From Tangfeifania sp. (lineage in GTDB: Bacteria > Bacteroidota > Bacteroidia > Bacteroidales > Prolixibacteraceae), in assembly GCA_018400515.1 (NCBI GenBank), contig JAGYMR010000009.1:1-28064 (forward strand): 28,064 nt of DNA, read 5' to 3'. The translations under genes were made by a program, and so were the position numbers. The first letter of the stretch is position 1; every line of letters begins with the position of its first letter. Positions 6,587-22,739 of this stretch are shown here, one piece after another. The notes below the pieces were generated by a model that was not told where the DNA came from, made no database searches, and saw nothing but the letters and a program-made list of their open reading frames with translations.

Positions 6587-6626
6587 GTTAAAGGAGAATT
6601 ACACAAATATTACACTTTGATTACAT
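6587..6626 (-). promoter_or_regulatory. Pho-box-like array: four tandem 11-bp direct repeats
   Basis: On the minus strand the 7-mers ATGTAAT (6626-6620), GTGTAAT (6615-6609), GTGTAAT (6604-6598) and CTTTAAC (6593-6587) repeat with an exact 11-bp period and 4-bp spacers. The E. coli PhoB box uses the same design, CTGTCAT plus a 4-bp AT-rich spacer; the units here match its TGT-AT core. The array overlaps the stop codon of the MORN-repeat gene. A similar array precedes the lipoprotein/TonB-receptor operon, and two phoB-like regulators are encoded nearby. Binding has not been shown; the regulator assignment is inference. Confidence 0.6.
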
Positions 6627-7097
6627 TTCGGGTTCGTACGTTCGCCGGCTCAGGACTTTACCTTTGCCATCGTATTTTTTCCATGTTCCCGATTTCTTTC
6701 CGTTTTTATAGGTAAGCTCATACAGCAGTCCGCCCTCATCGTTCCAGATTTTCCATTTGCCGTGTTTCCTGCCGTTTTTGTAACGGGCAACCGAAATTTT
6801 GGTGTTGTTTTTATTATAAATGACCCATTTCCCGTGCATGGCGTTGTTCTTGTAGGAACGGATTTCTTTCAAATCTCCGTTGGAGAAGTAGAACTTGACT
6901 TTTCCATGTTTTTTCCCCTCCCGGATGTTCATTTCCATTTTTAATGCGCCACTTTCATGGAAGGTCGTATATGTTCCGGTGAAAAGCTCACTGTTCTGGT
7001 AATAAAAGCCGTTCTTTTCCTTCAACTCCTGGCTGGCGGCGTTAAAGCCTGATAAAAGCAGGACGATCATTCCTGTGATCAATAAAAATTTTCTCAT
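6621..7097 (-). CDS. Secreted MORN-repeat / YwqK-family protein
   Basis: The product has 158 residues from the ATG at 7097. An N-terminal signal peptide (MRKFLLITGMIVLLLSGFNA) ends near AASQ. Then come tandem repeats of about 20-23 residues built on a G-x-W/F-x-x-Y/F plan, for example HGKVKFYF, HGKWVIYN, HGKWKIWN and SGTWKKYD. This is the MORN-like repeat seen in proteins annotated as YwqK-family antitoxins, a name that says little about function. I chose the internal ATG because the longer frame starts at a TTG and would bury the signal peptide. It follows the TonB-receptor gene by 66 bp on the same strand and probably ends that operon. A periplasmic or surface accessory role is plausible but unproven. 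Confidence 0.8.
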   Translation of the reverse strand: MRKFLLITGMIVLLLSGFNAASQELKEKNGFYYQNSELFTGTYTTFHESGALKMEMNIREGKKHGKVKFYFSNGDLKEIRSYKNNAMHGKWVIYNKNNTKISVARYKNGRKHGKWKIWNDEGGLLYELTYKNGKKSGTWKKYDGKGKVLSRRTYEPEM

Positions 7098-7163
7098 TGT
7101 TAATGAATTTGATGCTTGCAAAATAGTTGAAATTTTAAATATTGTCCCCAATCGCGCTGAAAA

Positions 7164-10061
7164 TTAAAAAGAATAACCCAGTTTGAGTTGAATGGTTGTT
7201 CCGGGACTGATGCTGGAAAAATACCGGGGTACTGCCTGGAATGATCTGTATACCGATTCTTTTTTGTCGTTCAGTATATTCTCAATTTTGAGTCCTGCCT
7301 GAAACCGTTCTTCCCCGCCGAATTTTCTGCTTGCTGTGAAACGGAGGCTGTGAAAGGGAACCGAGTAGATATCCGGGCGGTCGACGATGCCCACATATTG
7401 GATGGTTTGTCCCTGAACATTATAGAAGAGGCCTGCCTCCAGTCCTTTGGTCACTCCCTCATTTTCCCCGGCGTCCCAGGTTAGTCCCCCGTTGATAATG
7501 AACGGGGCCTGTCCGGCCATATCGCGGTATTTGTCCACTGCTTGCCCCGACCGGGCATTCTCCACCCTGGATTCATATTCGGTAGGGCTTAATTCAATCC
7601 GGGATTTGGTGAAGGTATAATTGAAGTACAGGTTCAGATTTTTCAGTGATTCGCTGATCAGTCCCAGGTTTTGACGGAGATCGATCTCCGCGCCAAGAAC
7701 CTGGCCATCGCCCACATTGCGGGGTTGATAGGAACCGGCCTGGGTGGCAAACTGCACCATTTCAATCGGATTGTTAAAGTGTTTCCAGAACAGGCTGGCC
7801 GACAGGGTTTGCCCGTAATCCTGAAACAGTTCCCAGCGAAGGTCAAAATTCTGGATATCTGTTTTGGTCAGATTTCCGTCCCAGTATTCCACGCCCGCAA
7901 TATCGTTAGCATCCCTGAATAATCCGCCGATGAAGGTCCGGCCCGAGATGGGGTCGAAGATCTCAGCGTAGGAGAGCTCTTTGAACGATGGGCGGGCAAT
8001 GGTTTTGGCGTATGAAAAGCGCAGGTTCTGATTTTCCGTCAGGTTGTAAATGAGGTTCACCGAAGGGAAAAAATCCAGGTTGTCCAATACCTTATCGTTT
8101 TCCAGGACATTCGTCCCCAACTGATCCTGCCCGGTGTAATGCTGCACGTAGTTTTCGGCCCGGACACCGAAGATCGTTTTCAGTTTTTTCACGGGGAAAA
8201 ATTCGAATGAAGCATACCCGGCCGCGTTGGCCACATTGGAGTTGAATTTGTTGGGATTTACCGGGGTAAAAGGGGCCTCGTAGGTGGTGCCTCTTGAGAT
8301 GTTGCCGTTGTAGGGCCACAGGTTCTCCGGCCGGAAGATCTCATTGGGGTCTCCTGTCAGGGGGATATTCCGGATGTTTAACGCATAATTCCGGATAATG
8401 AAATCCCGCTCCTTAAAGTTATAGGCCCCGCCGAATTTCAGTCGGGCTTCTTCCCCCTTCAGCTCCAGTTTTTTTGTGATGTGCAGCACTCCGGAGAGGT
8501 TGACCTCTGTCAAATTTCTCCAGATCCTCTCGGGGAATCCCACCTCCGTTCCGATCCGGTATTGTCCGTCCCGGTCCTCATACCGGGTAAAGCGAATATC
8601 GGGGGATTTAATTTTTGAATAGGTGGGCGAAAATTTCCAGACGAGGTCCCACCCCGAATCAAAGGCCGTATATTTCCCGTCGATGAGCGCATTGGAGAGG
8701 GAGCGCTGCGTGTATTCCAGGTTGTGCTGGAATCCGGAAAAACTGGAGCCCTGGTTGGATTTTGCATAATCAAAGATTCCTGCCTGTGACTCGCCGTTCT
8801 GCAGATGCAGCAGGTTGATCCTGTATTTTGAACGTTTTGTTTTTAGCGAAAATCCCGTGAGACCGCTGATAAAAACATTGTTGACCCCGTAATCGCCCGT
8901 CTGCAATTCCCGGACCTCCATCTCTGTCACACCAGGATCTGCCGATAATCCATACCTTCCGTATTCCGCATTTTGATAAAAATCCGTGTTGTTTTTGTAC
9001 GAAAGGGAGAAGATGTAACCCAGGGTGTATTTCCCTGATTTCATCTGATTTCCCAGGGATGTTGACAGCCCGAAATCCATCAGGCTGGACTGCCGGGAGG
9101 CGGCGAGTACCGGATTGAAGGACCCGATAATCTCCTGGTAGCGAAGGCCTTTTTCACCGCCGGGATTTCCCACCACCTCGGAGAAAAGGGGAATGTTTGT
9201 GGTTGCGGGGATATCCCTTGTGCCGTCGTCGAATCCGAGAAAATCCGTTTTCCCGCCTTCATAAGAGAGAAAATCATTATTGAAGTGTGCTCCCGGATTG
9301 TATCCGGCATCCATCGAAATGCCCCCCTCTTTGGTTTCAGGAAAATCTTTGAGGTTAATGTTGATCATTCCTCCGGTAAAATCGGCCGGCAGATCGGCAC
9401 TGAACGATTTATTTACCAAAATATTATCGATGATGCTGCGCGGAAAGATGTCCATCTGGATGGAGTTCCGGTCGGGATCGAGGCCCGGGATATCGAGGCC
9501 GTTGAGGATGGTTTTTGTATACCGGTCACCAAGACCGCGCACAAAAACATATTTGCCTCCCTCCACCGAAACGCCCGTCACCCGTTTCAGGGAAGCGGCC
9601 GCATTGGAGTCGCCGGTTCTTTTCAACCGCGCAGCCGAGATTCCGTCGATGACGTTGCCCGATTTTTTTTTCATGGTGAGCATCGCTGATTCGGTATTCC
9701 GTATATACGAGGCGGTTACGGTAGCCTCCCCCAGCTCAATGGTCGCTTCATTTAATTTCAGGTTGTTAAGCAGGGTGGGATCTCCTGTTTTTACTGTTAC
9801 ATCCTTCACCTTCAGGGTTTCGTAGGAGATAAAAGAGATTTGAAGCTGGTAGGTTCCCGGGGCAATGTTCAGGGTGAATTTCCCGTCGAGGTCGGTGATG
9901 GTTCCCTGATTGGTTCCTTCAACCAGAATATTTACGCCGGGGAGGGATTCCCCTGTTTCCCCGTCAAAGACCGACCCCCTGATCACTCCTTCCTGCCCGG
10001 ATGCCATGGAGGCGAGTATTATTAAAAAACTGGAAAACAGGATTTTAATTGCGTACATCAT
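7164..10061 (-). CDS. TonB-dependent outer-membrane receptor
   Basis: The product has 965 residues from the ATG at 10061; the frame stays open to a TTG at 10103, but that extension runs through a hairpin and precedes the signal peptide. The order is signal peptide (1-22, ending ASGQ), a carboxypeptidase-regulatory-like beta-sandwich (about 25-105), a plug (about 125-240) with YVFVRGLGDRYTKTILNG at 171-188 and a DIFPRSIIDNI segment, then a long beta-barrel ending in aromatic Phe. This plug style is found in TonB receptors not paired with SusD, and no SusD gene is present. The gene lies 89 bp after a beta-helix lipoprotein gene and before the MORN gene on the same strand. Energised import of a ligand is expected. 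Context suggests a phosphorus source such as phosphate, a phosphoester or a complex, but sequence alone does not show the ligand. Confidence 0.93.
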   Translation of the reverse strand: MMYAIKILFSSFLIILASMASGQEGVIRGSVFDGETGESLPGVNILVEGTNQGTITDLDGKFTLNIAPGTYQLQISFISYETLKVKDVTVKTGDPTLLNNLKLNEATIELGEATVTASYIRNTESAMLTMKKKSGNVIDGISAARLKRTGDSNAAASLKRVTGVSVEGGKYVFVRGLGDRYTKTILNGLDIPGLDPDRNSIQMDIFPRSIIDNILVNKSFSADLPADFTGGMININLKDFPETKEGGISMDAGYNPGAHFNNDFLSYEGGKTDFLGFDDGTRDIPATTNIPLFSEVVGNPGGEKGLRYQEIIGSFNPVLAASRQSSLMDFGLSTSLGNQMKSGKYTLGYIFSLSYKNNTDFYQNAEYGRYGLSADPGVTEMEVRELQTGDYGVNNVFISGLTGFSLKTKRSKYRINLLHLQNGESQAGIFDYAKSNQGSSFSGFQHNLEYTQRSLSNALIDGKYTAFDSGWDLVWKFSPTYSKIKSPDIRFTRYEDRDGQYRIGTEVGFPERIWRNLTEVNLSGVLHITKKLELKGEEARLKFGGAYNFKERDFIIRNYALNIRNIPLTGDPNEIFRPENLWPYNGNISRGTTYEAPFTPVNPNKFNSNVANAAGYASFEFFPVKKLKTIFGVRAENYVQHYTGQDQLGTNVLENDKVLDNLDFFPSVNLIYNLTENQNLRFSYAKTIARPSFKELSYAEIFDPISGRTFIGGLFRDANDIAGVEYWDGNLTKTDIQNFDLRWELFQDYGQTLSASLFWKHFNNPIEMVQFATQAGSYQPRNVGDGQVLGAEIDLRQNLGLISESLKNLNLYFNYTFTKSRIELSPTEYESRVENARSGQAVDKYRDMAGQAPFIINGGLTWDAGENEGVTKGLEAGLFYNVQGQTIQYVGIVDRPDIYSVPFHSLRFTASRKFGGEERFQAGLKIENILNDKKESVYRSFQAVPRYFSSISPGTTIQLKLGYSF

Positions 10062-10091
10062 TTTGTTTTTTAATTGGATAGTATAAATATG

Positions 10092-10123
10092 GAAGACCCA
10101 CAAGCAGGCGCTTGTGAGTCTTC
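10092..10123 (-). other. Strong intercistronic stem-loop
   Basis: GAAGACCCACAAGC (10092-10105) pairs with GCTTGTGAGTCTTC (10110-10123) with one mismatch in 14 positions and a 4-nt loop. It lies between the lipoprotein gene and the TonB-receptor gene in their shared direction. No T-tract follows on the minus strand (ATATTTATAC), so it is not a classic terminator. A role in protecting the 3' end of the upstream cistron or in partial termination would give more lipoprotein than receptor. Confidence 0.7.
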
Positions 10124-10150
10124 ATGCTGCGATTATGATAGGGATTGATT

Positions 10151-11701
10151 TTAGAAACCGGCCAGTTCACCATTTGCATCCGCCCATGTCCAGTTGGCAA
10201 AAACCGTTTTATCGGCACCAACCGTGCCTGATGTTACAATGGAAGCATCGGGTGCCTGGGTTTCAAAGACATTTCTTCCGTCCATTTTGTCAGAAAAAAT
10301 GGCTTCAATGGTCCGGTTCCCGGCAGTCAGGTGGCTGGTATTAAATTCCAGTCCCGAAAGGGTTACAGCACCATCCAGGTAGTTTTCCCCGATGGAGGCA
10401 TCGGCATCATCATCCCCGGCATCGAGCTCAAAATCAGAGCTTTCAGAGAAGTTAAAAAAGTAGCAGTTTTCGATGTTACAGGTAACACCGTCGCGAAGGT
10501 CTGCGTATTCACCGCCGTCTTTCCCTTCATCATTCCAACCTTTAAGTGAACCATTTTTAAGCGTGAAGGTTCCTGTTGCTTCTCCTTCCGGTCCATCCAG
10601 TTCCATGCCGTGATCGGATGTTTCACCGCCAATATAGATGAAATTGTCGATGGTCCCGCTGTAGGCCTGGTCCATATCATAGGCATCATCTCCCTGGTTC
10701 CAGACAATGATGTTTTTTACATTGACGGTCCCGCCAAAACATTCGATTCCGTCATCCTGATTGGCAACAATTTCAACATGTTCAATGACAGTTTCAGATC
10801 CAACACCGCCCAGGGTGAGGCCGTTGATTTCGTTCCCCTCGCCAATATTGGAACCGCCATGTCGGATACTGATATATTTCAGCACACCTGAATTGTCATC
10901 GGCTTTGTTTCCTCCATACAATCCGTTGTTATCGGATGGGGGAATCCCTTCGATCTGGAACGGTGTTTCATCGGCAGAGATCGGAGCCTCACCGAGAACA
11001 ATCAAACCTCCCCAAAGCCCGTTCAGATCCGGGTCAAGGTTGGGACTTTTGATTTCTCCCGGCTCAATTTCATCAGCTATTGAGGTGAAAATGATAGGGG
11101 ATTCTTCGGTTCCTTCGGCCATGATATCGGCACCGCGGGCAATGATCAGGGCCGATGCATTGGCGCCTGTTCCGGCTTCCCCTTTTACAACAACCCCCGG
11201 TTCAATGGTGAGGGTCGCCCCTGCTTCAACAGCGATTCGCTGTTTAAGGATGTAGGTTTTTCCGGTTTCCCACGTAACATCAGAGGTGATGTTTTCACTG
11301 ACGGCGATGACATTCAGCTCCTCTGCAATGGATAAAACGGCGGTGGCATTGTCGGATTTCATGTTGGCATCCGTGATGGTTAAAGTAACGGATGCGGCAC
11401 CGCCGGCAGTACCCGCCGTAAAGTCCACCACAACAGAACCGGTATTCGCTCCGGCTTCAGGTTCACTGGAGATGGCGGCTGTTCCTCCCTGCGCGGTGGC
11501 ACTGGAGGAGGCATAACCCCCGGGAACGTTCACTTCGAAGGTAACTTCAGCAGAGGCTCCTGCCTCAACATCGGTGGTGGCTGAAGGAGCTGTTACCGAT
11601 GGAGCATCCGGTATGACTTCCACCGGATCTTCTTCGCAGGAATAAAAAATGGCCGTTCCGAAAACAAAAGCGATCATGAGTAATAAATGACTCTTTTTCA
11701 T
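10151..11701 (-). CDS. Surface/periplasmic beta-helix lipoprotein (paralogue A)
   Basis: The product has 516 residues and a lipoprotein signal peptide with lipid-site Cys22 (FYSC), followed by acidic EED, a context linked to surface export of Bacteroidota lipoproteins. Residues about 34-126 form an Ala/Val/Thr-rich immunoglobulin-like or cadherin-like domain. From about 140 on, short repeating strands such as TIEPGVVVKG, ALIIARGADIMAEGT and PIIFTS are typical of a right-handed parallel beta-helix. The block NIGEGNEINGLTLGGVG (285-301) is identical to one in the lipoprotein at 15764-17080, and paired acids follow (DDG at 316-318, GDDAYDMD at 337-344). There is no type IX sorting domain and no catalytic motif I recognise. 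It is the first gene of the operon with the TonB receptor and sits behind a Pho-like array. I infer a ligand-capturing partner of the receptor. Confidence 0.85.
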   Translation of the reverse strand: MKKSHLLLMIAFVFGTAIFYSCEEDPVEVIPDAPSVTAPSATTDVEAGASAEVTFEVNVPGGYASSSATAQGGTAAISSEPEAGANTGSVVVDFTAGTAGGAASVTLTITDANMKSDNATAVLSIAEELNVIAVSENITSDVTWETGKTYILKQRIAVEAGATLTIEPGVVVKGEAGTGANASALIIARGADIMAEGTEESPIIFTSIADEIEPGEIKSPNLDPDLNGLWGGLIVLGEAPISADETPFQIEGIPPSDNNGLYGGNKADDNSGVLKYISIRHGGSNIGEGNEINGLTLGGVGSETVIEHVEIVANQDDGIECFGGTVNVKNIIVWNQGDDAYDMDQAYSGTIDNFIYIGGETSDHGMELDGPEGEATGTFTLKNGSLKGWNDEGKDGGEYADLRDGVTCNIENCYFFNFSESSDFELDAGDDDADASIGENYLDGAVTLSGLEFNTSHLTAGNRTIEAIFSDKMDGRNVFETQAPDASIVTSGTVGADKTVFANWTWADANGELAGF

Positions 11702-11825
11702 TGGATGTAAAATTTTAATTGTTAAAAATAAATTTTGGTTTCTTTTGTCTTATTCAAAAATTTTTTAAAAAATGGGTTGTCACTGTTTTTTTGCGCGATT
11801 CCGGGAGCGAAGCAAGACCAAGATT

Positions 11826-11876
11826 ATTACATCCTGATTACTGTTTATTTAAGCGATTATTACATTTGCTTAATCG
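11826..11876 (-). promoter_or_regulatory. Pho-box-like array upstream of the lipoprotein/TonB-receptor operon
   Basis: On the minus strand 7-mers recur every 11 bp: CGATTAA (11876-11870), ATGTAAT (11865-11859), GCTTAAA (11854-11848), CAGTAAT (11843-11837) and ATGTAAT (11832-11826), each separated by 4 bp. Two units are identical to the best unit of the 6587-6626 array. The last unit is 124 bp before the ATG of the lipoprotein gene. A TAATCTTG at 11828-11821 is one base off the Bacteroidota -7 consensus but overlaps the last unit, so the exact promoter is uncertain. The rest of the 336-bp gap up to 12037 shows nothing else I can support. Confidence 0.55.
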
Positions 11877-11889
11877 AAATGTAATAATC
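11855..11889. repeat. Perfect 13-bp inverted repeat
   Basis: GATTATTACATTT (11855-11867) is the exact reverse complement of AAATGTAATAATC (11877-11889), with a 9-base loop GCTTAATCG. A further direct copy of AAGATTATTACAT lies at 11820-11832. It overlaps the Pho-like array, so the left arm contains one array unit and the right arm presents the same 7-mer on the opposite strand. It has no T-tract, which argues against a terminator for the kinase gene. Confidence 0.85.
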
Positions 11890-12037
11890 TTGAAGGGCTT
11901 TAGTATAAAGGGATTTCTGATTTTTTTATTTTGTAAAACTGGGATGGGGAGGTCATCTGGTAATGTTAATTTAACCCGGGAATGGTTTTTCTGGTTAAGA
12001 AAGTCGGGGAGCGGAAGATGGGAACGACCGGGGGATG

Positions 12038-13807
12038 TTATTTTTTTGAAAAAGAGAACAGGAATTCTGTTCCCCTCCGGGGTTTGTTCCGGACGGAGAT
12101 GTCTCCTTTATGTAACTGGACGGCGTTCTTCACGATGGCCAGTCCCAGGCCGGTACCGCCCGATTCACGTGTCCGGCCGTGGTCCACACGGTAGAAACGT
12201 TCAAAAATGCGGGGAAGGTGTTTCGCAGGAATCCCTTCCCCATTATCGGAATAAGAGAAAAAGAAATATTTTTCGTCTTCGTGGTATAATTTTATTTCAA
12301 TGGTTATTTCTTTGCCACCATAATTGATGGAGTTTTCAATGAGGTTCTGGAAAACGGAAAAAAGCAGCGACTCATTTCCCTGGATTACCGTTCCGCTTTG
12401 GATGTTATGGAGCAGCTGAATGTGTTTTTCCTTTAGCCGGTGGGCAAAATTTTCCTCCACATCGTCAATGACTTTTTTGATATCCACAGGTTTGAAGGGA
12501 AAAAGCTCACCAGCATCTTCAATATTATTAAGCAGCGAAACATCATTGATAAGATCGGTCAGTCTTTCGGCCTGGCAAAAAGCCTTGTTGAGAAAATTCA
12601 GTTGTTTCTCCTCCGGGACGGGCCAGTTGTTGAGCATCGTTTCGATATAACCTTTGATTGAAGCCAGCGGCGTTTTGAGTTCATGTGCGATATTGGAGGT
12701 CAGTTGCTGCTTCATCCGCCTTCGTTTTTCCAGTTTGGTGATATCGGTGATCACCACCTCGAAACTGCGGTCCAGAAAAACAATGCTTTGAATTTTGTAA
12801 TATTTTTCGTTTTTGGAGATGACATATTCCAGGTGGGGCAGGGCTTCCGGATGAAAAGGCGTTTTTTGGCTCAGATGCGTTTCAAGAAACTGGTTGAGCT
12901 TTTGAAATTCCCCGATGCCGAAAATATTGGCCGGTGAGTAGATGGTCCTTTTGGAAATGATGTTGATGTATTGGATGAAATGGCTGTTGGAGAGGGTTTT
13001 TTCCTTTTGGGGTGAAAAAAAGGCAATCCCCTCATTAAGGGCATTGAGGTGATTGAATAATTTCTCTTTTTCGTTGGAAAGTTCGTCTTTGGTGTTTTTC
13101 AGGTTGTTGTAGATCCGTATGATCTGACTGCCAATAATCCCGAGTTCATTTTCGGGGAAGGATGTGTCGCGTTCAATCCGCTCATTTCTGCCCGCTTTGA
13201 TCGAAAAGTCCTTCAGTTTGGTGATTGAAACAGATAACCTGTTGGTTACAAGGAAAAGGATGATTCCAATAACACCAAATAGGGAAACAATGAAAAAGAT
13301 AAAGGCCTGTTCAGCTTTCAGGAAATTTTTTATCTGAACGTTGTATACCACCGCTGTCCGTACAAAATATCCTGGATATTTTTTTGCATAATAGTAGTAG
13401 TCCTGGTTGGTGGTCTCCGAATGGCGAATGTTTGAACCTGTCTGGTTCCGGAGTGCTTTTTGAATCTCCGGACGGTCCAGGTGGTTCTCCATTTGATGGT
13501 ATTCTTCCACAAAACTGTCGTACAAAACGTTCCCTTTCTTGTCAATCAGGGTGATGCGTGTCTGAGGCTGGGGAATAATGCTTTTTAATTCACCAATGCG
13601 GTCGAGCTTGTTTTCCTCAATCAGGTTATTTTGTCTGGTGAAGCGTTGCGTAATCTCTGCTATGTTGTCGAGCGTGTTTTCCAGTTGCGCAGCCCGGTAG
13701 TTTTTTTCCCGCTGGTATTGAAAAGTGAGGATGGCCGCGGTGAATAAAAAGAAAACCACGATAAAGTAGAGGAATATTTTTCCCCTGAAAGATTTAATTT
13801 TCACCAT
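12038..13807 (-). CDS. Sensor histidine kinase (PhoR/WalK-like, large extracytoplasmic sensor)
   Basis: The product has 589 residues from the ATG at 13807, 16 bp after the regulator stop codon; the frame extends upstream only to a TTG inside the regulator gene. Transmembrane helix 1 is about 10-31, a periplasmic sensor region of roughly 135 residues follows, and helix 2 is about 168-187. A linker with a probable PAS-like segment (about 250-360) leads to the HisKA motif SNIAHELKTP with phospho-accepting His375. The ATPase domain shows NLIENSINYG (488-497), DNGEGIP (521-527) and GGTGLGLAIVK (550-560). All catalytic boxes are intact. It is translated with the response regulator at 13824-14516. 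Context suggests phosphate or envelope sensing; the actual signal is unknown. Confidence 0.92.
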   Translation of the reverse strand: MVKIKSFRGKIFLYFIVVFFLFTAAILTFQYQREKNYRAAQLENTLDNIAEITQRFTRQNNLIEENKLDRIGELKSIIPQPQTRITLIDKKGNVLYDSFVEEYHQMENHLDRPEIQKALRNQTGSNIRHSETTNQDYYYYAKKYPGYFVRTAVVYNVQIKNFLKAEQAFIFFIVSLFGVIGIILFLVTNRLSVSITKLKDFSIKAGRNERIERDTSFPENELGIIGSQIIRIYNNLKNTKDELSNEKEKLFNHLNALNEGIAFFSPQKEKTLSNSHFIQYINIISKRTIYSPANIFGIGEFQKLNQFLETHLSQKTPFHPEALPHLEYVISKNEKYYKIQSIVFLDRSFEVVITDITKLEKRRRMKQQLTSNIAHELKTPLASIKGYIETMLNNWPVPEEKQLNFLNKAFCQAERLTDLINDVSLLNNIEDAGELFPFKPVDIKKVIDDVEENFAHRLKEKHIQLLHNIQSGTVIQGNESLLFSVFQNLIENSINYGGKEITIEIKLYHEDEKYFFFSYSDNGEGIPAKHLPRIFERFYRVDHGRTRESGGTGLGLAIVKNAVQLHKGDISVRNKPRRGTEFLFSFSKK

Positions 13808-13823
13808 CTTCAGCTGGCTGTTT

Positions 13824-14516
13824 TTAATTGGGGTTATTATCCCGGAAACAATACCCATAGCCCGATTTCCCTTTGATGTGATCTCCGTAATCCCCGATTT
13901 TTTTCCGGAGCCGTGCAATGTTTACATCCACATTTCGCTCGGTTACGATCACATCATCTTTCCAGATGCGCTGAAGGATCTCCTCGCGGCTGAGGTATTG
14001 TCCCCTGTTTTTTAATAAAAGGCTCAGGATCTCAAATTCTTTGCGGGTCAGGTTGATATTTTGTCCGTAAAGGAAGATCTCTTTTTTAAGCAGATCCACC
14101 GTTAAATTCTCAAAAACAATTTTTTCATCTTCCCCGCCAGGACCGGTCCCTCTTCTTAAAATCGCTTTAATCCGGGCAATGACCTCTTTGATGGAGAATG
14201 GTTTTGGAATATAATCATCCCCGCCCACGTTAAAACCGGTCAGGATGTCGTTCTCCTCCCCTTTGGCGGTGAGAAAGATCACCGGGGTATTTAGTTTTTT
14301 CTCTTTCCGGATAACGTTGGCCACTTTATATCCTGATATTCCCCCCATCATGACGTCCAGCAGGATCAAATCAAAATTTTCGAGGGGTTTTTTCAGTGCC
14401 TCTTCCCCCGAGTGGGCAAGATCAATGGAAAAGCCTTCACTTTCCAGGTTGAACTGCAAAATTTCGCACAGGTCTTTTTCGTCGTCAACAATCAGTATTT
14501 TTGGGTTCCCTTTCAT
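13824..14516 (-). CDS. OmpR/PhoB-family response regulator
   Basis: The product has 230 residues: a receiver domain with acidic pair Asp10/Asp11, phospho-acceptor Asp54 (LILLDVMM), Thr83 and Lys105, then a winged-helix DNA-binding domain. The recognition region reads ERNVDVNIARLRKKIG and ends SGYGYCF. OmpR/PhoB-type regulators typically bind direct repeats with about 11-bp period, which matches the arrays found in this window. The gene comes first in a two-gene operon with its kinase and is divergent from the porin operon across 237 bp. It is less similar to E. coli PhoB in the recognition helix than the regulator at 22041-22739, so it may read a related but distinct site. Confidence 0.94.
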   Translation of the reverse strand: MKGNPKILIVDDEKDLCEILQFNLESEGFSIDLAHSGEEALKKPLENFDLILLDVMMGGISGYKVANVIRKEKKLNTPVIFLTAKGEENDILTGFNVGGDDYIPKPFSIKEVIARIKAILRRGTGPGGEDEKIVFENLTVDLLKKEIFLYGQNINLTRKEFEILSLLLKNRGQYLSREEILQRIWKDDVIVTERNVDVNIARLRKKIGDYGDHIKGKSGYGYCFRDNNPN

Positions 14517-14642
14517 CTTTGCAGTGAATTTTTGTTTGTTAACTTACGGTAAACAGATTGGTTTGCTTTATTAAAAATTTGTTAATTGTTATCGGTGGAA
14601 TCCTGAGAATAGGCGGAAACAATGTTCCCGACATTCATATTT

Positions 14643-14709: not shown

Positions 14710-14753
14710 AATGTTATTAATTCGTACTTTTTGTTTATTGCTAACTTTTTTTT

Positions 14754-15758: not shown

Positions 15759-15763
15759 AAAGG

Positions 15764-17080
15764 ATGAAAATGAGAGAAAAATTAGGGATCTTTTTTTTCC
15801 TCCTATTGGTGGTTGTCTCTTGCCGAAAGAGTGATTATAGCCTTGAAACAGGTGACGAAATTTACCGGGGCGGGGGAAATGGAACCGGAACGGTCACTTG
15901 GACCAATGAAAGGGATTATTTGCTGGATGGGTTGGTTTTTGTGAACGACGGTCAGGTACTTACCATTGAGGCGGGAACCGTGATCCGGTTTCGTCCGGGG
16001 CAGGCTGAAAATGCCAGTGCCCTGGTGGTGGCCCGGGGCGGAAAAATTATCGCCCGCGGAACACGGGAGAACCCCATCATTTTTACTTCGGAGAACGACG
16101 ACCTGTATGGATCCGTTGAAAAAGAAGCGAAAGGGTTATGGGGAGGATTGATTATTCTGGGACATGCCCCTGTAAATGTGGCCGGAGGTGAAGCTCGGGT
16201 GGAGGGGATCCCCCTTTTCGAGCCCCGCGGGATCTTTGGGGGGGATAATGAAGCCGACGATTCCGGCGTCCTGCGGTATGTCTCCATCAGGCATGGAGGC
16301 ACTAATATTGGCGAAGGAAACGAGATCAACGGGCTTACCTTGGGAGGCGTGGGACGGAAAACCGAGATCGATTTTGTTGAGGTGATTTCCAATGACGACG
16401 ATGGCGTGGAAATTTTCGGTGGAACGGTGAATCTGAGGCACCTGGTGGTCTCAGGATGCAGTGACGATCTGTTCGATTATGATCTGGGCTGGACCGGGAA
16501 GGGACAGTTCTGGCTTGGATTTGAAAATGAGTATATCGGGGATCACCTGATCGAGGCGGGGGGAGGCTCCGACCCTGTTCTTGGTTATCCGTACTCCCTG
16601 CCGGTTATTTTAAATGCCACCCTTATCGGAAATGGTGAAACCGGAAGAGGAACCTGTGTGTTTTTTGAACGTTTTGCCGGAGGTATTATCGCCAATTCTG
16701 TTTTTGTTAACAATCAAAACGGCGTCTGGCTGGATACCCAAAACGGAGAGAACGATACCTACAGCCAGTGGCAAAGCGGGAAACTGAAGATCGAGAACAA
16801 CCTTTTCCACCAGGTTCCGATTCCTCTTAGTGACCCTGTTTTTCAGCTTACAGGAATCTATACCCCTCAAATGGAGGAGGCGTGGGCCGGCTATTTCGAA
16901 GCCGGTAACAATGAAAGGGGAGACCCCGCTATTGATCCGGCAAACGGTCAGTTTGTCCCGGCACAGAAAATCATGGGAAATTTGTATGAATATCCCGCTG
17001 AATGGTTCCAGAAAGTGGATTTTAAAGGGGCTTTCGGAGAAGATAACTGGGTGGATGGATGGACCCTGCTTTCCCCATAA
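15764..17080 (+). CDS. Beta-helix lipoprotein (paralogue B)
   Basis: The product has 438 residues from the ATG at 15764, 5 bp after the porin stop; the open frame extends upstream only to a TTG inside the porin gene. The signal peptide ends in the lipobox VVSC with lipid-site Cys20. Unlike paralogue A it lacks the immunoglobulin-like domain and goes directly into the beta-helix (about 40-330), with matching segments LTIEAGTVIRF, ALVVARGGKIIARGT, NPIIFTS and GLWGGLIILG. NIGEGNEINGLTLGGVG at 181-197 is identical to paralogue A. The paired acids recur as DDDG (211-214) and SDDLFDYD (233-240). The tail is unrelated to that of A. Being locked in an operon with a porin-like barrel suggests it feeds ligand to, or gates, that barrel. 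Confidence 0.85.
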   Translation: MKMREKLGIFFFLLLVVVSCRKSDYSLETGDEIYRGGGNGTGTVTWTNERDYLLDGLVFVNDGQVLTIEAGTVIRFRPGQAENASALVVARGGKIIARGTRENPIIFTSENDDLYGSVEKEAKGLWGGLIILGHAPVNVAGGEARVEGIPLFEPRGIFGGDNEADDSGVLRYVSIRHGGTNIGEGNEINGLTLGGVGRKTEIDFVEVISNDDDGVEIFGGTVNLRHLVVSGCSDDLFDYDLGWTGKGQFWLGFENEYIGDHLIEAGGGSDPVLGYPYSLPVILNATLIGNGETGRGTCVFFERFAGGIIANSVFVNNQNGVWLDTQNGENDTYSQWQSGKLKIENNLFHQVPIPLSDPVFQLTGIYTPQMEEAWAGYFEAGNNERGDPAIDPANGQFVPAQKIMGNLYEYPAEWFQKVDFKGAFGEDNWVDGWTLLSP

Positions 17081-17175
17081 GCCGGAAGGAATTTGTGCTT
17101 CGGAGATCCCACCATCTGGCCTGGTTTTTACCCCAAGGCACCCTGCCAAATGACAATCTTTCTGGGTTCATTTGA

Positions 17176-18006
17176 TTAAATGATGTTGGGGAAAGTCAAT
17201 TCTTTCACCAGCGATTGATATAATTGCCGCCCTTCCGGAAGATCCGGTTCGTCCGTTTGTCCTTCATCATCCCCACCCTCATGATGATAAAGATGCCATT
17301 TTTTGTCGTAATATTCGGCCGCTGTGAAGTTTTCCACCCAGTCGCCACAATTCAGATAATGTACCCGGTGGCCATTGATTCTTATCTCTTTCTCACGGGG
17401 CAGGTGGGTATGTCCGCAAATAACGGAGTGATACCCCATGGACATCGAGGTCTTTGCAACGGAAGCCTCCAGTTTCGAAGGGCTGACCTTGTTTTTTGAA
17501 AAGGGTTTTTTTATGTTCTTGTAGATGATGACCTCATGCCCTCCGAGCTTTTCTAATAGATGATTTAAACTTTTATTTATTACGGAAAGCAGTCCTAATC
17601 CTGCAGCGCCCAGCCGTGCCAGCCATTTGGATTGATGAATAACCGGATCAAAGATATCTCCGTGAATCATCCAGGTTTTTAAACCATTCAAATCAAGCAC
17701 CAATTGATTCACAATTTTCAAATTGCCGATTTCCGTCTGATTGAATTTCCGTAAAAATTCATCATGATTCCCCGTTATGTAATAAATCCGTGTTCCTTTC
17801 TCCATCATTTTTATCAGTTGACGGATCACCTTTAAATGGCTTTTGGGAAAATAATTCCTGCTGAACCTCCAGGAGTCAATGATATCTCCGTTCAGGACCA
17901 ATGTTGCGGGGTGAATCGATTTGAGGTATTTCAGTACTTTTTTGGGTTTGCTGGCAAAGGTAGCAAGGTGTAAATCAGAAATGACCGCAACTTCTAATTT
18001 TCTCAC
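17176..18006 (-). CDS. Calcineurin-like metallophosphoesterase (LpxH/PlcP-like)
   Basis: The product is a 276-residue cytoplasmic dimetal phosphoesterase. The metal ligands are complete: Asp11/His13 in ISDLHLA, Asp41 in NGDIID, Asn80-His81 in GNHDEF, His115 in HGDIFD, and His199/His201 in CGHTHLP. The family (COG2908-like) includes UDP-2,3-diacylglucosamine hydrolases and the phosphate-starvation phospholipase C PlcP of alphaproteobacteria. Segments such as IDSWRF, GNHDEFLR, the HGDIFDPVIHQSKWLA stretch and YLNCGDWVE look to me closer to PlcP, judged from memory. Together with the phosphate-gene setting this suggests membrane phospholipid breakdown under phosphate limitation. The start is a GTG at 18006; an upstream ATG is out of frame. 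Its 5' region carries a weaker Pho-like array. Confidence 0.88.
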   Translation of the reverse strand: MRKLEVAVISDLHLATFASKPKKVLKYLKSIHPATLVLNGDIIDSWRFSRNYFPKSHLKVIRQLIKMMEKGTRIYYITGNHDEFLRKFNQTEIGNLKIVNQLVLDLNGLKTWMIHGDIFDPVIHQSKWLARLGAAGLGLLSVINKSLNHLLEKLGGHEVIIYKNIKKPFSKNKVSPSKLEASVAKTSMSMGYHSVICGHTHLPREKEIRINGHRVHYLNCGDWVENFTAAEYYDKKWHLYHHEGGDDEGQTDEPDLPEGRQLYQSLVKELTFPNII

Positions 18007-18075
18007 TGCTTCATGTTTTTTATCGTTTAAAATAATTTGTTAATGAAGGGCTGATTGTAATCGAATCATGTTTTG

Positions 18076-18092
18076 TTGGAATTTTTTTCCAA
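18076..18092. repeat. Short inverted repeat upstream of the phosphoesterase gene
   Basis: TTGGAA (18076-18081) and TTCCAA (18087-18092) flank five T. It lies about 70-85 bp upstream of the GTG start and could be an operator or a small hairpin in the leader. No family is recognised. Confidence 0.4.
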
Positions 18093-18104
18093 ACACATTC
18101 CATT

Positions 18105-18155
18105 CTTACAAAGAAGCGTAAACTTCATTAATGAACCGTTAAAAACATATTACGT
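18105..18155 (-). promoter_or_regulatory. Weaker Pho-box-like array upstream of the phosphoesterase gene
   Basis: On the minus strand 11-bp-phased units read ACGTAAT (18155-18149), TTTTAAC (18144-18138), CATTAAT (18133-18127), a poor TTTACGC (18122-18116) and TTGTAAG (18111-18105). Two units match the nTGTAAT core at five of six positions, the others less well. The array ends about 99 bp before the start codon, a geometry similar to that before the lipoprotein operon. AT-rich background makes a chance match possible. The remainder of the 18007-18328 gap shows nothing else beyond the short inverted repeat. Confidence 0.35.
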
Positions 18156-18328
18156 CTCGAATAATCGTATCTGATTCATCTAACGGAAAATTATGAAGGG
18201 GAATTTTCGTATTCATGAACCGTTTGGTCAGGAATCGTTGATGGCTCTTTTGCCATGCATCTGTTTTCCGGGATGTTTTCCTGGAGGCCTTTCAAATAAG
18301 ACAGCGGTCAGATTTTTTAGTGAGGAGG

Positions 18329-20599
18329 TTATGACCGCTCCTGCTCCGTCACCCGGATAAAATCGCGGTGGGCCTTAATCAGGTTGATCGAATGGAGCAA
18401 CATATTTTTTGTTTCCGTAATGGTGTTGAAAAATAATACCGAGTTCCGGGTATTCACTTCCCGCGTTTTGATCCTTTTGATCTGGGCGATTTCCATCTTT
18501 TCCAGGTATTGGAAAATATGATCCCGTTGTTTGATCAGATCATCCACTTTCCCGAAATCATTTTCTTTAACCAGCCTGAGTGCCAAACTGAAAAAGTTGT
18601 CAATTTGGGATTTAAGCGCTGTTAATTCTTCGGCCTGTGCTTTTATGAAAGGTTTATGGTGGTTGTTGATATGTTCAAAGAGCGGCTCTACAAGGAAGTT
18701 CAGCGAATGAGCCATCTCTCTCTGGTAATCCACCAGTTGTACATAGAAATGCCCAGAATCAATATTCTCTTCAATCTTCGAAAGAATGTTTAAGACCTTG
18801 TTTTTCTTTTTCTTCGACTTTTTATTCAGGGTGTTTTTTACCTCAATAGTCTCTTTCAGTTTGGAACGGCTCTCTTTCAAAAAGGAGTGGATACTTTCGT
18901 CGTAGATTTGATTGGCCTGAACAATGGATTTGGTCACCTGCTTTATGCATTTTTCCAACACTTTGTCGGTTTCATCCTTCTCGGTAATGGCTTCCTCCTC
19001 CTCTTCAGCGGCCGTTTTTCTCCGTTTGTTAAATAACATGTGGGTACGAATAACCATGAAAACGGCCAGAGCCACGAAGACAAAAATGACGAACTTTCCT
19101 CCCACCGAAATGAACCAGGCGATCAGTGCAGAAACAGAAAATGCGAGGATGGCCGTTAAAAACCAGCCGCCGATGACAGAGAAAACGCCGGAGATTCGGT
19201 AAACCGCACTTTCACGGTCCCAGGCCCCGTCGGAGAGGGATGTCCCCATGGCAACCATAAAAGTTACATAGGTGGTGGAAAGCGGGAGCTTGAGGGATGT
19301 CCCGATGGCAATAAGGATACTGGCCACGACAAGGTTTACCGAAGCCCTGATCTTGTCGAAAGCGGGGCCGTCGGCTTGCACTGCTGTCTCCGGAGCGGAC
19401 GAACGAAAACGCGCCTGAATAGCACTGATTAGCGAGTCGGGCATCACCTGGATGAGGGTTTTGTTAAATTTGGTTGAGCTTCTCACTATGAACCTTGCTG
19501 CCAGAGAAGAATTAAAGCGCTCGGAACCCTCTCCCTGCCTTGATAAATTCACTTCTGTTTTAACTACCGACTGGGCTTTTCGTGAAAGGATCAGGGTAAT
19601 GATCATAATCAATCCGGCCAGGGCCAGCATAAACGGAGGCGTGCCTACTTTTCCGGCCAGCATCTCCATGGAAAAGGCCTCGGGAGAAGCGGAACCCGCT
19701 GCGACCCATGCTTTGAACGAGTTGAACCCTGCCAGGGGAACACCGATGAAGTTCACCAGGTCGTTCCCGGCAAAAGCCATGGCCAGGGCAAACGTACCGA
19801 CCAGTACGATCAGTTTAAGGATCTTAATATTGAACAACCATTTCAATGCTTGCAAAATGATCACCCAGGAAACGAAACTGTACAATAGAAGGGTTCCTGC
19901 ATGGTGTACCACCCAATCACCAATTTTTTCACCGCCGGCCACTTTAACTTCTGCAAAGGCAGATCCTTTGATCCCTTTGATGAGCATAAAATAGACGATC
20001 GCTGTTATGGCCAAACCCCCAAAAACGGAACCGAAATATTTCATGGGCCCCCGGTAGTTAAAGGTGAAAATTAACCGTGTGATGTACTGGATAATGGCTC
20101 CTATGGAGAAAGCAATGAACACGGATAGTAATATTCCCGTGATAATGGCCAGCGCTTTTTCAGAATTAATGTATTCGGATAACTCCAGAAAAGATCCACC
20201 CATGCTGTATATCTTTACCAGCGAAACAGCCACTGCAGAACCCAGCAGTTCAAAAACAATGGAAACCGTGGTGGAGGTGGGCATGCCAAACGTGTTGAAC
20301 AGGTCCAGTAGGATGATATCGGTGATCATCACAGCCAAAAAGATGACCATGATCTCGGAAAAAACAAACATGTCGGGGTGAAATATTCCCTTCCGGGCAA
20401 CCTCCATCATACCGCTCGAAAAGGTGGCTCCGATTAAAACCCCGGCTCCTGCCATCAGGAAAATGAGCCACTTGGATGCTGCTTTGGAACCAAATGCAGA
20501 ATTCAAAAAATTTACAGCATCATTGCTTACGCCAACAATTAAATCGGAGATCGCCAGTGCGAAGAGGATGACAACAATAATCAAGTAAAAATTTTCCAT
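18329..20599 (-). CDS. pit: PiT-family inorganic phosphate transporter with PhoU-like C-terminal domain
   Basis: The product is a 756-residue inner-membrane permease. Both halves of the internally repeated PiT signature are present: GVSNDAVNF at 23-31 and AGNDLVNF at 277-284. The substrate-binding Ser/Thr loops are MPTSTTVS at 106-113 and LPLSTTYV at 438-445. Hydrophobic helices run to about residue 517. The remaining 235 residues are charged, helical and cytoplasmic, with the look of a fused PhoU-like regulator. PiT proteins carry metal-phosphate with protons or sodium at low affinity. The length, about 250 residues above the E. coli PitA core, is due to this tail. It is transcribed alone on the minus strand, divergent from the phoR-like kinase gene across 306 bp. 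Confidence 0.93.
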   Translation of the reverse strand: MENFYLIIVVILFALAISDLIVGVSNDAVNFLNSAFGSKAASKWLIFLMAGAGVLIGATFSSGMMEVARKGIFHPDMFVFSEIMVIFLAVMITDIILLDLFNTFGMPTSTTVSIVFELLGSAVAVSLVKIYSMGGSFLELSEYINSEKALAIITGILLSVFIAFSIGAIIQYITRLIFTFNYRGPMKYFGSVFGGLAITAIVYFMLIKGIKGSAFAEVKVAGGEKIGDWVVHHAGTLLLYSFVSWVIILQALKWLFNIKILKLIVLVGTFALAMAFAGNDLVNFIGVPLAGFNSFKAWVAAGSASPEAFSMEMLAGKVGTPPFMLALAGLIMIITLILSRKAQSVVKTEVNLSRQGEGSERFNSSLAARFIVRSSTKFNKTLIQVMPDSLISAIQARFRSSAPETAVQADGPAFDKIRASVNLVVASILIAIGTSLKLPLSTTYVTFMVAMGTSLSDGAWDRESAVYRISGVFSVIGGWFLTAILAFSVSALIAWFISVGGKFVIFVFVALAVFMVIRTHMLFNKRRKTAAEEEEEAITEKDETDKVLEKCIKQVTKSIVQANQIYDESIHSFLKESRSKLKETIEVKNTLNKKSKKKKNKVLNILSKIEENIDSGHFYVQLVDYQREMAHSLNFLVEPLFEHINNHHKPFIKAQAEELTALKSQIDNFFSLALRLVKENDFGKVDDLIKQRDHIFQYLEKMEIAQIKRIKTREVNTRNSVLFFNTITETKNMLLHSINLIKAHRDFIRVTEQERS

Positions 20600-20650
20600 T
20601 ATCCCTTTTTTAGCGGAATTTGATTTTTGGTGCGAAATAAACTGTATTCG

Positions 20651-20701
20651 CTCACGAAAATATTAAAAATCGGTTAATTTTCCATGAAATATTGATTAAT
20701 C
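20651..20701 (-). promoter_or_regulatory. Possible degenerate Pho-box-like array upstream of the PiT gene
   Basis: Minus-strand units at 11-bp phase are GATTAAT (20701-20695), ATTTCAT (20690-20684), AATTAAC (20679-20673), TTTTAAT (20668-20662) and TCGTGAG (20657-20651). Only ATTTCAT and TTTTAAT resemble Pho units well. The array ends 52 bp before the PiT start. This is the least certain of the four arrays. Confidence 0.25.
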
Positions 20702-20820
20702 AAAAAACGCCCTATTTTTTTTATTTTTGCTTCATGAAAATAGAGCGCGCGTGGAAAGGAGTTTCAGATTTAAAATGAATGGTGAAACGATCATGGAGAG
20801 AAAATTTTTACTCCGGAGCA

Positions 20821-20835
20821 TGTAAAATATTTACA
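20821..20835. repeat. Short palindrome upstream of the phoR-like gene
   Basis: TGTAAA and TTTACA flank ATA at 20821-20835, 71 bp before the kinase start codon. Followed by TACCTTTA at 20875-20882, which is one base off the Bacteroidota -7 consensus, it could be an operator for the phoR-phoB operon. The rest of the 20600-20905 gap holds nothing else I recognise. Confidence 0.35.
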
Positions 20836-20905
20836 CCCCAGGGGATGATAAAAATACATGCGAGTTTCATACTATACCTTTAAAAACAACCAATATTAAT
20901 AGTAT

Positions 20906-21946
20906 ATGAAAACACACTCTTCAAGAAAACTGGCAACATTCCTTTCAGCTTTGCTGACCCTGCTGGTTGCTTTGATTCTGTTCATCAGCCGTTGGTTCCC
21001 TGAAGAGATTATTGTGCCGGTCCTGCTGGTGGTTGCTTTTTTCCTCTTTGCATTCTTTTTTGTAAATTTTATCATTAACAAGTATATCCTGGATAAGATC
21101 CGTCCGGTATACAAAACCATTAAGGACCTACCCCTGAGTGGCAAAAGGCTGGAGGAGAAATCGACCGATTCTTCGAATCTGCTGGCAAACGTGCGGTTTG
21201 AAGTGGAGGAGTGGGCGAAGACCCAGATGAAAGAGATTGAACGGTTAAAAGAGCTGGAGCGTTACCGGAAAGAGTTTGTCGGCAACGTTTCCCATGAATT
21301 GAAAACCCCCATATTTAACATCCAGGGATATATATTGACCCTGCTGGAGGGGGGGATTGACGATTCTAAAATCAACCTGCTTTATCTTAAACGGACGGAA
21401 AAAAGCATCAACCGGATGATCTCCATTGTAGAAGATCTCGAATCGATTACCAAACTTGAATCAGGCGAATTAAAGCTAAACCTGGTGAGTTTTGATATTG
21501 TGAAAACGGTGAAGGATGTATTGGATATGGAACAGTGGCAGGCTGATGAAAGAAATATTACGCTGGAGATGATCCAAAAACCGCCCAAACCGGTCTTTGT
21601 AAAAGCCGACCGGAACCGTATTCTCGAGGTTCTCACCAATTTGGTGGTGAACGGGATAAAATATGGCAGGGAACATGGGTATGTACATGTTTCATTTCAT
21701 GACCTGGATGATGCCATTATGGTGGAGGTGACCGATAACGGGATTGGCATAGAAAAAAAGAATTTACCCCGGGTTTTTGAGCGGTTTTACCGCGTTGATA
21801 AATCCCGTTCCCGCGAACAGGGAGGGACGGGACTCGGCCTTTCCATTGTGAAGCATATCATTGAAGCACACAATCAGTCTATTAATGTGCGCAGTGTGGT
21901 CGAACAGGGCACCACATTTAATTTTACCCTTGAAAAAGCCAAATAA
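20906..21946 (+). CDS. phoR: PhoR-type sensor histidine kinase
   Basis: The product has 346 residues. Two transmembrane helices (about 11-28 and 35-57) are joined by a loop of only a few residues, so there is no real periplasmic sensor, as in many phosphate-type PhoR kinases that sense through the transporter or PhoU. A short linker leads to HisKA with NVSHELKTP and His130. The ATPase domain has LTNLVVNGIKYG, DNGIGIE (277-283) and GGTGLGLSIVK (305-315). The family is the PhoR branch. The gene faces away from the PiT-PhoU gene and is followed 94 bp later by the phoB-like regulator gene. A link between the PhoU-like tail of PiT and this kinase is inference. Confidence 0.9.
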   Translation: MKTHSSRKLATFLSALLTLLVALILFISRWFPEEIIVPVLLVVAFFLFAFFFVNFIINKYILDKIRPVYKTIKDLPLSGKRLEEKSTDSSNLLANVRFEVEEWAKTQMKEIERLKELERYRKEFVGNVSHELKTPIFNIQGYILTLLEGGIDDSKINLLYLKRTEKSINRMISIVEDLESITKLESGELKLNLVSFDIVKTVKDVLDMEQWQADERNITLEMIQKPPKPVFVKADRNRILEVLTNLVVNGIKYGREHGYVHVSFHDLDDAIMVEVTDNGIGIEKKNLPRVFERFYRVDKSRSREQGGTGLGLSIVKHIIEAHNQSINVRSVVEQGTTFNFTLEKAK

Positions 21947-22040
21947 TCGGGCTACTTTTGAAATAACTGTATTTTTATTATTTTTTTTGTGCTTCAGCAT
22001 TTAACAATCGTTACCTTTATCATTTGTAACAATAAAAACC

Positions 22041-22739
22041 ATGACCGAAAGTATTTTTAAAATCCTGTTGGTGGATGATGAGATCGATATTCTTGAATTC
22101 CTGAGCTATAATCTCGAAAAAGAGGGCTACAAAGTATTTACTGCCCAGAATGGTGCCGATGCTATAAAGCTGGCCGAAGAGAAAAAACCCCATTTGATCC
22201 TGCTTGATGTGATGATGCCCGAAATGGACGGGATTGCTGCTTGCGAAGAGATCCGGAAGATCCCTGCGCTCAATGATACCCTCATTGCGTTTCTGACGGC
22301 CCGTGGGGAAGATTATTCACAAATTGCCGGTTTTGAAGCGGGTGCCGATGATTATATTACCAAGCCGGTGCGGCCCAAGGTGTTGGTGAGCAGGGTAAAA
22401 GCATTGTTGAAGCGCTCCGGGGAAAGCGGACCTGTTTCGTTTGCCAAAGATTCCAGCACTATGACCATTGGGAATCTGGTGATTGACAAAGAGCGTTACC
22501 TGATCCGGATCGGGGATAAGGAGATGATTCTTCCGCGGAAAGAGTTTGAACTGCTATCCCTGCTTGTTTCAAAGCCGGGAAAGGTGTTCACCCGGGAAGA
22601 GATCTATACCTCTGTCTGGGGAGAGAACGTGGTGGTCGGCGACCGGACCATTGATGTGCATATCCGGAAATTGCGGGAAAAAATCGGGAATGTACATATC
22701 AAGACGCTGAAAGGAATCGGGTACAAATTTGTAGAGTGA
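22041..22739 (+). CDS. phoB: PhoB-type response regulator
   Basis: The product has 232 residues. The receiver domain has Asp12/Asp13, phospho-acceptor Asp56 (LILLDVMMP), Thr86 and Lys108. The winged-helix output domain has recognition sequence DRTIDVHIRKLREKIG followed by TLKGIGYKF, very close to the DRTVDVHIRRLR and RGTGYRF elements of E. coli PhoB as I recall them. This makes it the best candidate to bind the nTGTAAT arrays in the window. It forms an operon with the kinase upstream. Its stop codon and that of the convergent gene at 22742 lie within the 10-bp palindrome GTGAGCTCAC. Confidence 0.92.
   Translation: MTESIFKILLVDDEIDILEFLSYNLEKEGYKVFTAQNGADAIKLAEEKKPHLILLDVMMPEMDGIAACEEIRKIPALNDTLIAFLTARGEDYSQIAGFEAGADDYITKPVRPKVLVSRVKALLKRSGESGPVSFAKDSSTMTIGNLVIDKERYLIRIGDKEMILPRKEFELLSLLVSKPGKVFTREEIYTSVWGENVVVGDRTIDVHIRKLREKIGNVHIKTLKGIGYKFVE

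Follow-up and report, generated by a model that had tools for sequence, protein, structure and literature searches.

A candidate PhoBR-linked island of Tangfeifania sp. in which one lipoprotein family adjoins both a TonB-dependent receptor and a porin-like barrel

The systems closest to the one considered here have been described in Flavobacterium johnsoniae and Caulobacter. In the available portions of the report of Lidbury et al. (PMC8115612), the F. johnsoniae locus PUSIV (Fjoh_0542-0546) comprises OprP, PhoR, PhoB, a TonB-dependent transporter (TBDT) and the lipoprotein FII, labelled as having a pectin-lyase fold, and PUSIII comprises FI and a TBDT; phosphate depletion strongly induced the TBDT and FII of PUSIV, with no significant change in OprP. 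The same authors related FI-FIII to a Caulobacter lipoprotein, which we read as being ElpS. In the portions available of Le Blastier et al. (PMC2996285), ElpS (CC0170) is an extracellular low-phosphate lipoprotein encoded beside the receptor CC0171, and the co-occurrence of the two was taken to reflect, probably, a functional interaction. We analysed a 28,064-nucleotide stretch of DNA from Tangfeifania sp. (assembly GCA_018400515.1, contig JAGYMR010000009.1), called the window throughout, in which one lipoprotein, LipA, is encoded beside a TonB-dependent receptor and a homologue, LipB, beside a porin-like outer-membrane barrel.

PUSIV and the window have in common a phoBR cluster, a porin (OprP-type in the former), a receptor with Plug and CarbopepD domains and, beside it, a lipoprotein. 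They differ in that OprP, in the available account, has no named lipoprotein partner, whereas the window adds LipB, a PiT permease, a second kinase and regulator (HK2/RR2) and a phosphoesterase. The ElpS/CC0171 locus likewise places a lipoprotein gene (low-phosphate in that case) beside a TonB-dependent receptor gene, but it lies next to type II secretion genes, its product is released into the medium and, in the available text, no porin partner is described. The kinship of LipA to FII and ElpS is taken from the published accounts, the match made here being to the large family PF28492. By analogy with PUSIV/FII and ElpS/CC0171, the LipA-receptor half is already known in kind. A literature search by titles and the openings of abstracts, with subscription papers mostly outside its scope, returned no description of a porin-paired member of the family.

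Two further comparisons concern the barrels. SusCD and PusCD systems also combine a lipoprotein gene with a TonB-dependent receptor carrying an N-terminal CarbopepD_reg domain; unlike them, the window has a receptor that is not SusC by the curated model (TIGR04056, 69.7 bits against a cut-off of 368, residues 41-180 only) and lipoproteins that match no SusD family (the Pfam scan of 19 open reading frames of the window gave none). A previous reading of the window made from the letters alone (the sequence-only reading) had proposed that a beta-helix lipoprotein replaces SusD here, which is loose wording, since the receptor fails the SusC model. The window porin resembles OprP/OprO (PF07396, phosphate-selective porin O/P) in lying beside phoB, and a PF07396 match below threshold (17.8 bits against 20.9) was obtained for its homologue L095, but the window porin itself matches no Pfam or NCBIfam family, PF07396 included, at an E-value of 0.01. 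The porin family profile reached only E 0.03-0.12 against the solved OmpT and porin P chains, and several homologues in Prolixibacteraceae, among the matches listed, are called "porin".

We think it somewhat more probable than the contrary that the window carries a PhoBR-linked outer-membrane island for phosphorus scavenging, in which a single lipoprotein family underlies two routes. The proposal rests on the gene pairs, their conservation, their linkage to Pho and PiT genes, the single clade formed by porin-paired lipoproteins, the missing acidic signal of LipB and the hairpins that precede receptor genes. In the first route LipA, probably at the surface and perhaps in excess over its receptor, would capture or process a phosphorus-containing ligand, and the receptor would import this ligand with TonB energy. 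In the second, phosphate would diffuse in through the porin, and LipB tethered there would raise its capture or its hand-over to the PiT permease, which would complete the path; LipB may act from the periplasmic side, as its N-terminus suggests. The island would be expected to respond to phosphate, and each lipoprotein to touch its barrel; the published low-phosphate induction of the F. johnsoniae and Caulobacter proteins speaks for the proposal. Porins are generally regarded as acting on their own, and the porin pairing points to another way in which the same lipoprotein may be used. If the proposal is true, active and passive uptake that rely on one and the same protein could be compared directly.

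LipA and LipB are homologous (46% identity over 228 aa, E 6e-62), in agreement with the sequence-only reading, which had described them as paralogues with an identical stretch. The exact stretch common to both, NIGEGNEINGLTLGGVG, falls where the family is most conserved, so it marks kinship and not a recent duplication. Nor was the latter supported by the trees, which place LipA and LipB in separate clades. The family is very common and uncharacterised (at least 7,891 homologues among 7,995 candidates scored), and the comparison of porin and receptor partners gives a concrete handle on it; PF28492 is carried by the 120 LipA homologues among the matches listed. Conservation at eight acidic residues of LipA (E291, D316, D317, E320, D338, D339, D342 and E367) is 97-100% among receptor-paired members and likewise among porin-paired ones, which makes it probable that the two types of pair handle a similar ligand or metal. 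The beta-helix fold assigned earlier was not confirmed: no solved structural relative of the family was found by sequence or profile search, and annotation by others is all there is, namely the (incomplete) UniRef name "Right handed beta hel" of the homologue P0245 and IPR011050 for F. johnsoniae FII (available portions of PMC8115612). Between its lipobox and core LipA contains about 100 extra residues (approximately 25-130) that its shorter relatives in the G001 family (about 400-415 aa) do not have; the alignment with database homologues of about 510 aa spans the full length.

The placing of LipA in one unit with a TonB-dependent receptor was borne out by the Plug, barrel and CarbopepD_reg_2 domains of the latter, which scores 177 bits against NCBIfam TIGR01782 (cut-off 310). 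In an even draw of 118 genomes of the phylum, the lipoprotein family (E 1e-10) was found in 79 and the receptor (E 1e-60) in 70. Among 71 receptor places, 68 (in 67 genomes) were located within 3 kb of a family member, always on the same strand, with the receptor first in 55 and the lipoprotein first in 13. When the DNA around family members was read in the remaining 12 genomes, a receptor adjoined in seven, which brings the adjacency to 74 of the 79 family-holding genomes; in the five without a pair (G023, G063, G074, G090 and G109) only part of the family copies were read. The pair was also present in all of a further six loci, the receptor of L003 being split into two frames. Pairing with the receptor therefore recurs beyond chance (74/79), and the neighbourhood search suggested in the sequence-only reading supports it for these genomes; some family copies have no barrel neighbour, and for those the contrary outcome that it had named holds.

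Several unusual family members came to light in this survey. Behind some receptors, two to four lipoprotein-domain stretches are fused in one protein (L116:10427-16030, L117:3407-6370, L119:8014-10929). Five receptor-less copies have PorP/SprF-domain proteins of the type IX secretion system nearby, so that a third kind of outer-membrane barrel neighbours the family, and Ig/CHU_C-type proteins are encoded in the four of these loci that were scanned (CHU_C below cut-off in L139 and L142). A barrel-less member (L155:5980-9481) lies behind a PAP2/haloperoxidase-like gene, which may be a further link to phosphatases.

The position of LipB directly behind the porin-like barrel was likewise upheld; its start lies 5 bases past the porin stop with the ATG at 15764, or 11 bases with that at 15770. 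In an order-level draw the porin was found (E 1e-40) in 88 of 393 genomes, at 93 places, of which 40 were read down the ranking, some being passed over by no set rule (53 were left out). In 22 of these 40 regions the gene directly behind the porin is that of a family lipoprotein, a recurrence beyond chance; L221, in which a regulator gene intervenes and the lipoprotein precedes a receptor, was not counted. The porin has a PiT permease within 4 kb in 19 of the 40 regions and an RR2-like regulator within 6 kb in seven. The closest relative, L207, has the order of the window (porin, LipB, PiT, HK2, RR2, PAP2, RpoN) with no phosphoesterase in between. In Mariniphaga anaerophila, the consecutive locus tags 105346 and 105347 are a porin and a lipoprotein. 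Six of the 31 genomes of the G001 family contain a close LipB (E <1e-100), in each case directly behind the porin and with a PP-loop gene next. Both kinds of pair occur in one stretch in L209, L217 and L220; in L209 PhoR-PhoB adjoins porin-LipB, with a lipoprotein-receptor pair nearby. The claim that one lipoprotein family neighbours a TonB-dependent channel in some cases and a channel presumed to be passive in others is supported (74/79 genomes, 22/40 porin regions, one clade).

The origin of the porin pairing was examined in a maximum-likelihood tree of 110 lipoprotein domains (65 receptor-paired, 29 porin-paired and 16 with neither partner; midpoint root). The 29 porin-paired members form one clade among the receptor-paired ones (support 100/99; present in 200 of the 200 bootstrap trees examined), and a single clade of receptor-paired members was rejected (approximately unbiased test, p 2e-49). 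The porin pairing therefore seems to have arisen once, from receptor pairing, although under midpoint rooting this direction is the simpler reading rather than a proof. In a quick tree, the rows adjoining the porin-paired clade were L160 and L221, the latter with a porin, a regulator and a lipoprotein-receptor pair as neighbours. The porin tree (58 rows) mixes regions with and without the lipoprotein, with nine changes of state, at least three of them forced by supported branches; one gain and several losses of the lipoprotein behind the porin would fit this pattern.

The two kinds of lipoprotein also differ at their N-termini. Surface lipoproteins of Bacteroidota carry acidic residues just after the lipid-bearing cysteine, the lipoprotein export signal (LES), as shown in other species (available portions of PMC5080379). 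By this definition from other species LipA has the signal, with two acidic residues shortly after the cysteine (C-EEDPVE), and is probably located at the cell surface. LipB (C-RKSDYS) lacks it, with fewer than two acidic residues in the five positions after the cysteine; it may therefore not be a surface cap, and may face the periplasm if the export rule holds here. At least two acidic residues in the next five positions were found in 27 of 41 receptor-paired and 3 of 28 porin-paired members with a lipobox (Fisher p 5e-6, a value that ignores relatedness). Read by hand, 28 of the 29 members of the porin-paired clade have arginine right after the cysteine, mostly as R-K-S, the exception being L220 (C-E-R-K-G-D-Y); the automatic lipobox calls had misread L212 and L245 and missed L209. 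A bolder form of the proposal, to which we give rather little credence, is that the family switched once to a passive phosphate porin and that the C-R-K-S-D-Y-like start replaced the export signal, LipB being a periplasm-facing acceptor docked beneath the porin and passing phosphate on to PiT, so that a porin-lipoprotein-PiT line would take the place of PstS.

A hairpin precedes the receptor gene in most units where the lipoprotein comes first. Stems of at least 11 pairs (best stem, one mismatch allowed) were present in 19 of 21 lipoprotein-to-receptor gaps, compared with 8 of the 21 gaps in which the receptor comes first and 29 of 78 further gaps between same-strand genes, ordinary terminators being among the latter. 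The two failing gaps were those of L113 and of L105, where an early start call had shortened the gap; L159 and L161 have gaps of 761 bases. The folding z-scores of the 17 lipoprotein-to-receptor gaps folded ranged from -2.7 to -6.2. A natural reading is that the hairpin would give more lipoprotein than receptor. Hairpins of differing sequence occupy the same place in the window (10092-10123) and in L101-L104, L106-L108, L110-L112, L114, L115, L217 and L220.

The interpretation of the region as a Pho locus stands, with PhoB and PhoR identified by curated models and with relatives that embed the lipoprotein-receptor pair in Pho operons. In L178 the order is receptor, lipoprotein, ABC permease and ATPase (presumably PstA and PstB), an unmatched 206-aa protein, PhoU, PhoB, a Bro-N gene and PhoR; in L179 it is Porin_O_P, PhoB, PhoR, receptor, lipoprotein, MORN and a small CarbopepD-like open reading frame, the gene set of the window. 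Of the two PhoB/PhoR-like pairs announced earlier, the first exceeds the curated Bacteroidota cut-offs (320 over 270 and 658 over 500 bits) and the second remains below them: RR2 scores 217.9 bits against 270 (NF053854), and HK2 falls under all PhoR-type cut-offs shown (264 against 400 for PnpS, 234 against 334 for PhoR, 155 against 500 for Bacteroidota PhoR). RR2-like genes (best match RR2, at least 170 bits) occur near 15 of 60 lipoprotein-receptor loci. The window PhoR was found in three of the 31 G001-family genomes; a search with it and the NCBIfam PhoR over the 118 phylum genomes gave 0/118 with at most ten kinase candidates scored per genome, and was treated as uninformative. The Bro-N domain gene between phoB and phoR in L178 lies at 12248-13114.

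Two further Pho-related names were kept in part. The "PiT-PhoU permease" is a PiT permease (PHO4, PF01384, 79.1 bits over 33.7), but its supposed PhoU domain has no Pfam match and, in the weak test offered by a PhoU profile of two sequences, reached 0.6% probability in hhalign. The "PlcP-like phosphoesterase" has Metallophos_2 and Metallophos matches, with nothing more specific than these above cut-off to justify "PlcP": PF12850 is also the Pfam family of F. johnsoniae PlcP, though a broad one, and the best NCBIfam match is of the LpxH type (55 bits, under 134). Metallophosphoesterases 32-41% identical to that of the window are encoded beside lipoprotein-receptor pairs in L160:5010-10916 and L120:6705-12256.

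Several observations weigh against an island with two routes. The porin has no lipoprotein behind it in 18 of the 40 regions, and in 12 other G001-family genomes it is followed directly by the PP-loop gene; LipB is therefore optional to the porin. PiT is near in 15 of the 22 regions with the lipoprotein and 4 of the 18 without, so PiT and LipB may simply travel together. Around porin-LipB in the six G001-family genomes that have a close LipB, similarity comparison over the 12-20 kb read revealed no further gene of the window. Family members without any barrel neighbour exist, and no lipobox was called in 24 of the 65 receptor-paired members, two of which (L118, L122) have a type IX sorting tail, so the family is not always a lipoprotein. 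Finally, a search for TTTAACA in two copies at a spacing of 11 bp, a motif from a PhoP study in Riemerella (available portions of PMC9603813), did not reveal a significant Pho-box-like repeat in front of LipA (P 0.225), the porin (0.065) or PhoB (0.05), the last two scores being one shared site in the PhoB-porin gap. The mean best score in the operons of 22 relatives was 10.95 against 9.91 in shuffles, and four of six porin orthologues reached P 0.04, a hint at most.

The strongest competitor, which we rate a little below an even chance, is that co-regulation is all there is: LipB might be an ordinary Pho-regulon lipoprotein (a phosphatase accessory, as proposed for ElpS) that shares the porin operon without contact. 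The same PP-loop gene lies downstream of the porin with LipB between them (six genomes) or without it (12 genomes), and the mixture of regions in the porin tree, with its nine changes (at least three forced), points the same way, as does the greater secreted phosphatase activity that accompanied ElpS overproduction (available portions of PMC2996285). Set against this are the single clade of all 29 porin-paired members, their distinctive shared N-terminus and the retention of the porin neighbour while the surroundings change. It is also conceivable, if unlikely, that two separate systems lie close by chance, a PhoBR-LipA-receptor operon and a PiT-porin-LipB-HK2/RR2 block with different needs. 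The two pairs are on different contigs in the six G001-family genomes, whose assemblies are fragmented; but both occur together in L209, L217 and L220, RR2-type regulators are found near both kinds of pair, and PiT and PhoBR both concern phosphate.

An equally improbable alternative in our view is that the family consists of polygalacturonase-like beta-helix enzymes that hydrolyse phosphorus-bearing cell-wall polymers, and not of binding proteins. The S-D-H-G of LipA was compared with what we take to be the catalytic motifs of GH28; its histidine is not one of the positions that reach 85% conservation in each of the two groups, receptor-paired and porin-paired, and a polygalacturonase identity is not supported at the residue level. 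The ladder of conserved acidic residues through the core would suit a hydrolase, but could equally bind metal or be structural. The modelling of FI-FIII on an Aspergillus polygalacturonase by the F. johnsoniae authors (available portions of PMC8115612) favours the enzymatic alternative.

The features are listed in Table 1; the gene positions that the sequence-only reading had given for the island needed no correction.

Table 1. Coordinates of the window features and of features in related loci (locus handle before the colon)
Feature	Position	Strand	Remarks
MORN-repeat protein	6621..7151	-	last gene of LipA-receptor unit; Pfam MORN_2 57 bits; likely ATG ~7097
TonB-dependent receptor, 979 aa	7164..10103	-	Pfam barrel, Plug, CarbopepD_reg_2; likely ATG 10064
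Hairpin, 14 pairs	10092..10123	-	between LipA and receptor genes; possible attenuator or terminator
LipA, 516 aa lipoprotein, receptor-paired	10151..11701	-	lipobox FYSC, then C-EEDPVE
PhoR sensor kinase	12038..13918, likely start near 13807	-	NCBIfam NF053855, 658 bits (cut-off 500)
PhoB response regulator	13824..14516	-	NCBIfam NF053854, 320 bits (cut-off 270)
Porin-like outer-membrane barrel, 334 aa	14754..15758	+	divergent from phoB
LipB, porin-paired lipoprotein	15764..17080	+	lipobox VVSC, then C-RKSDYS
Calcineurin-like metallophosphoesterase	17176..18006	-	PF12850, 51 bits
PiT-type phosphate permease with C-terminal extension	18329..20599	-	PF01384, 79 bits
Sensor kinase HK2	20906..21946	+	under PhoR cut-offs
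OmpR-family regulator RR2	22041..22739	+	under PhoB cut-off (NF053854, 217.9 against 270 bits)
PorP/SprF-neighbour loci	L139:7841-14049, L142:845-8663, L146:7281-13674, L150:2144-8148, L153:3512-8830		
Small CarbopepD_reg_2-like proteins	L101:6001-6339, L179:5375-5731, L220:12222-12575, others		Pfam scan covered L101

Scans of the window for non-coding signals gave no match to an RNA family in Rfam, 22 sigma-70 promoters against 22.7 expected and 20 terminator-like elements against 21.2 expected. A homologue of the MORN gene occurs near the receptor in the six loci L101-L106 and near the pair in L179. Near receptor and MORN genes, small proteins of about 112-119 aa are encoded that resemble only the N-terminal CarbopepD_reg_2 part of the receptor.

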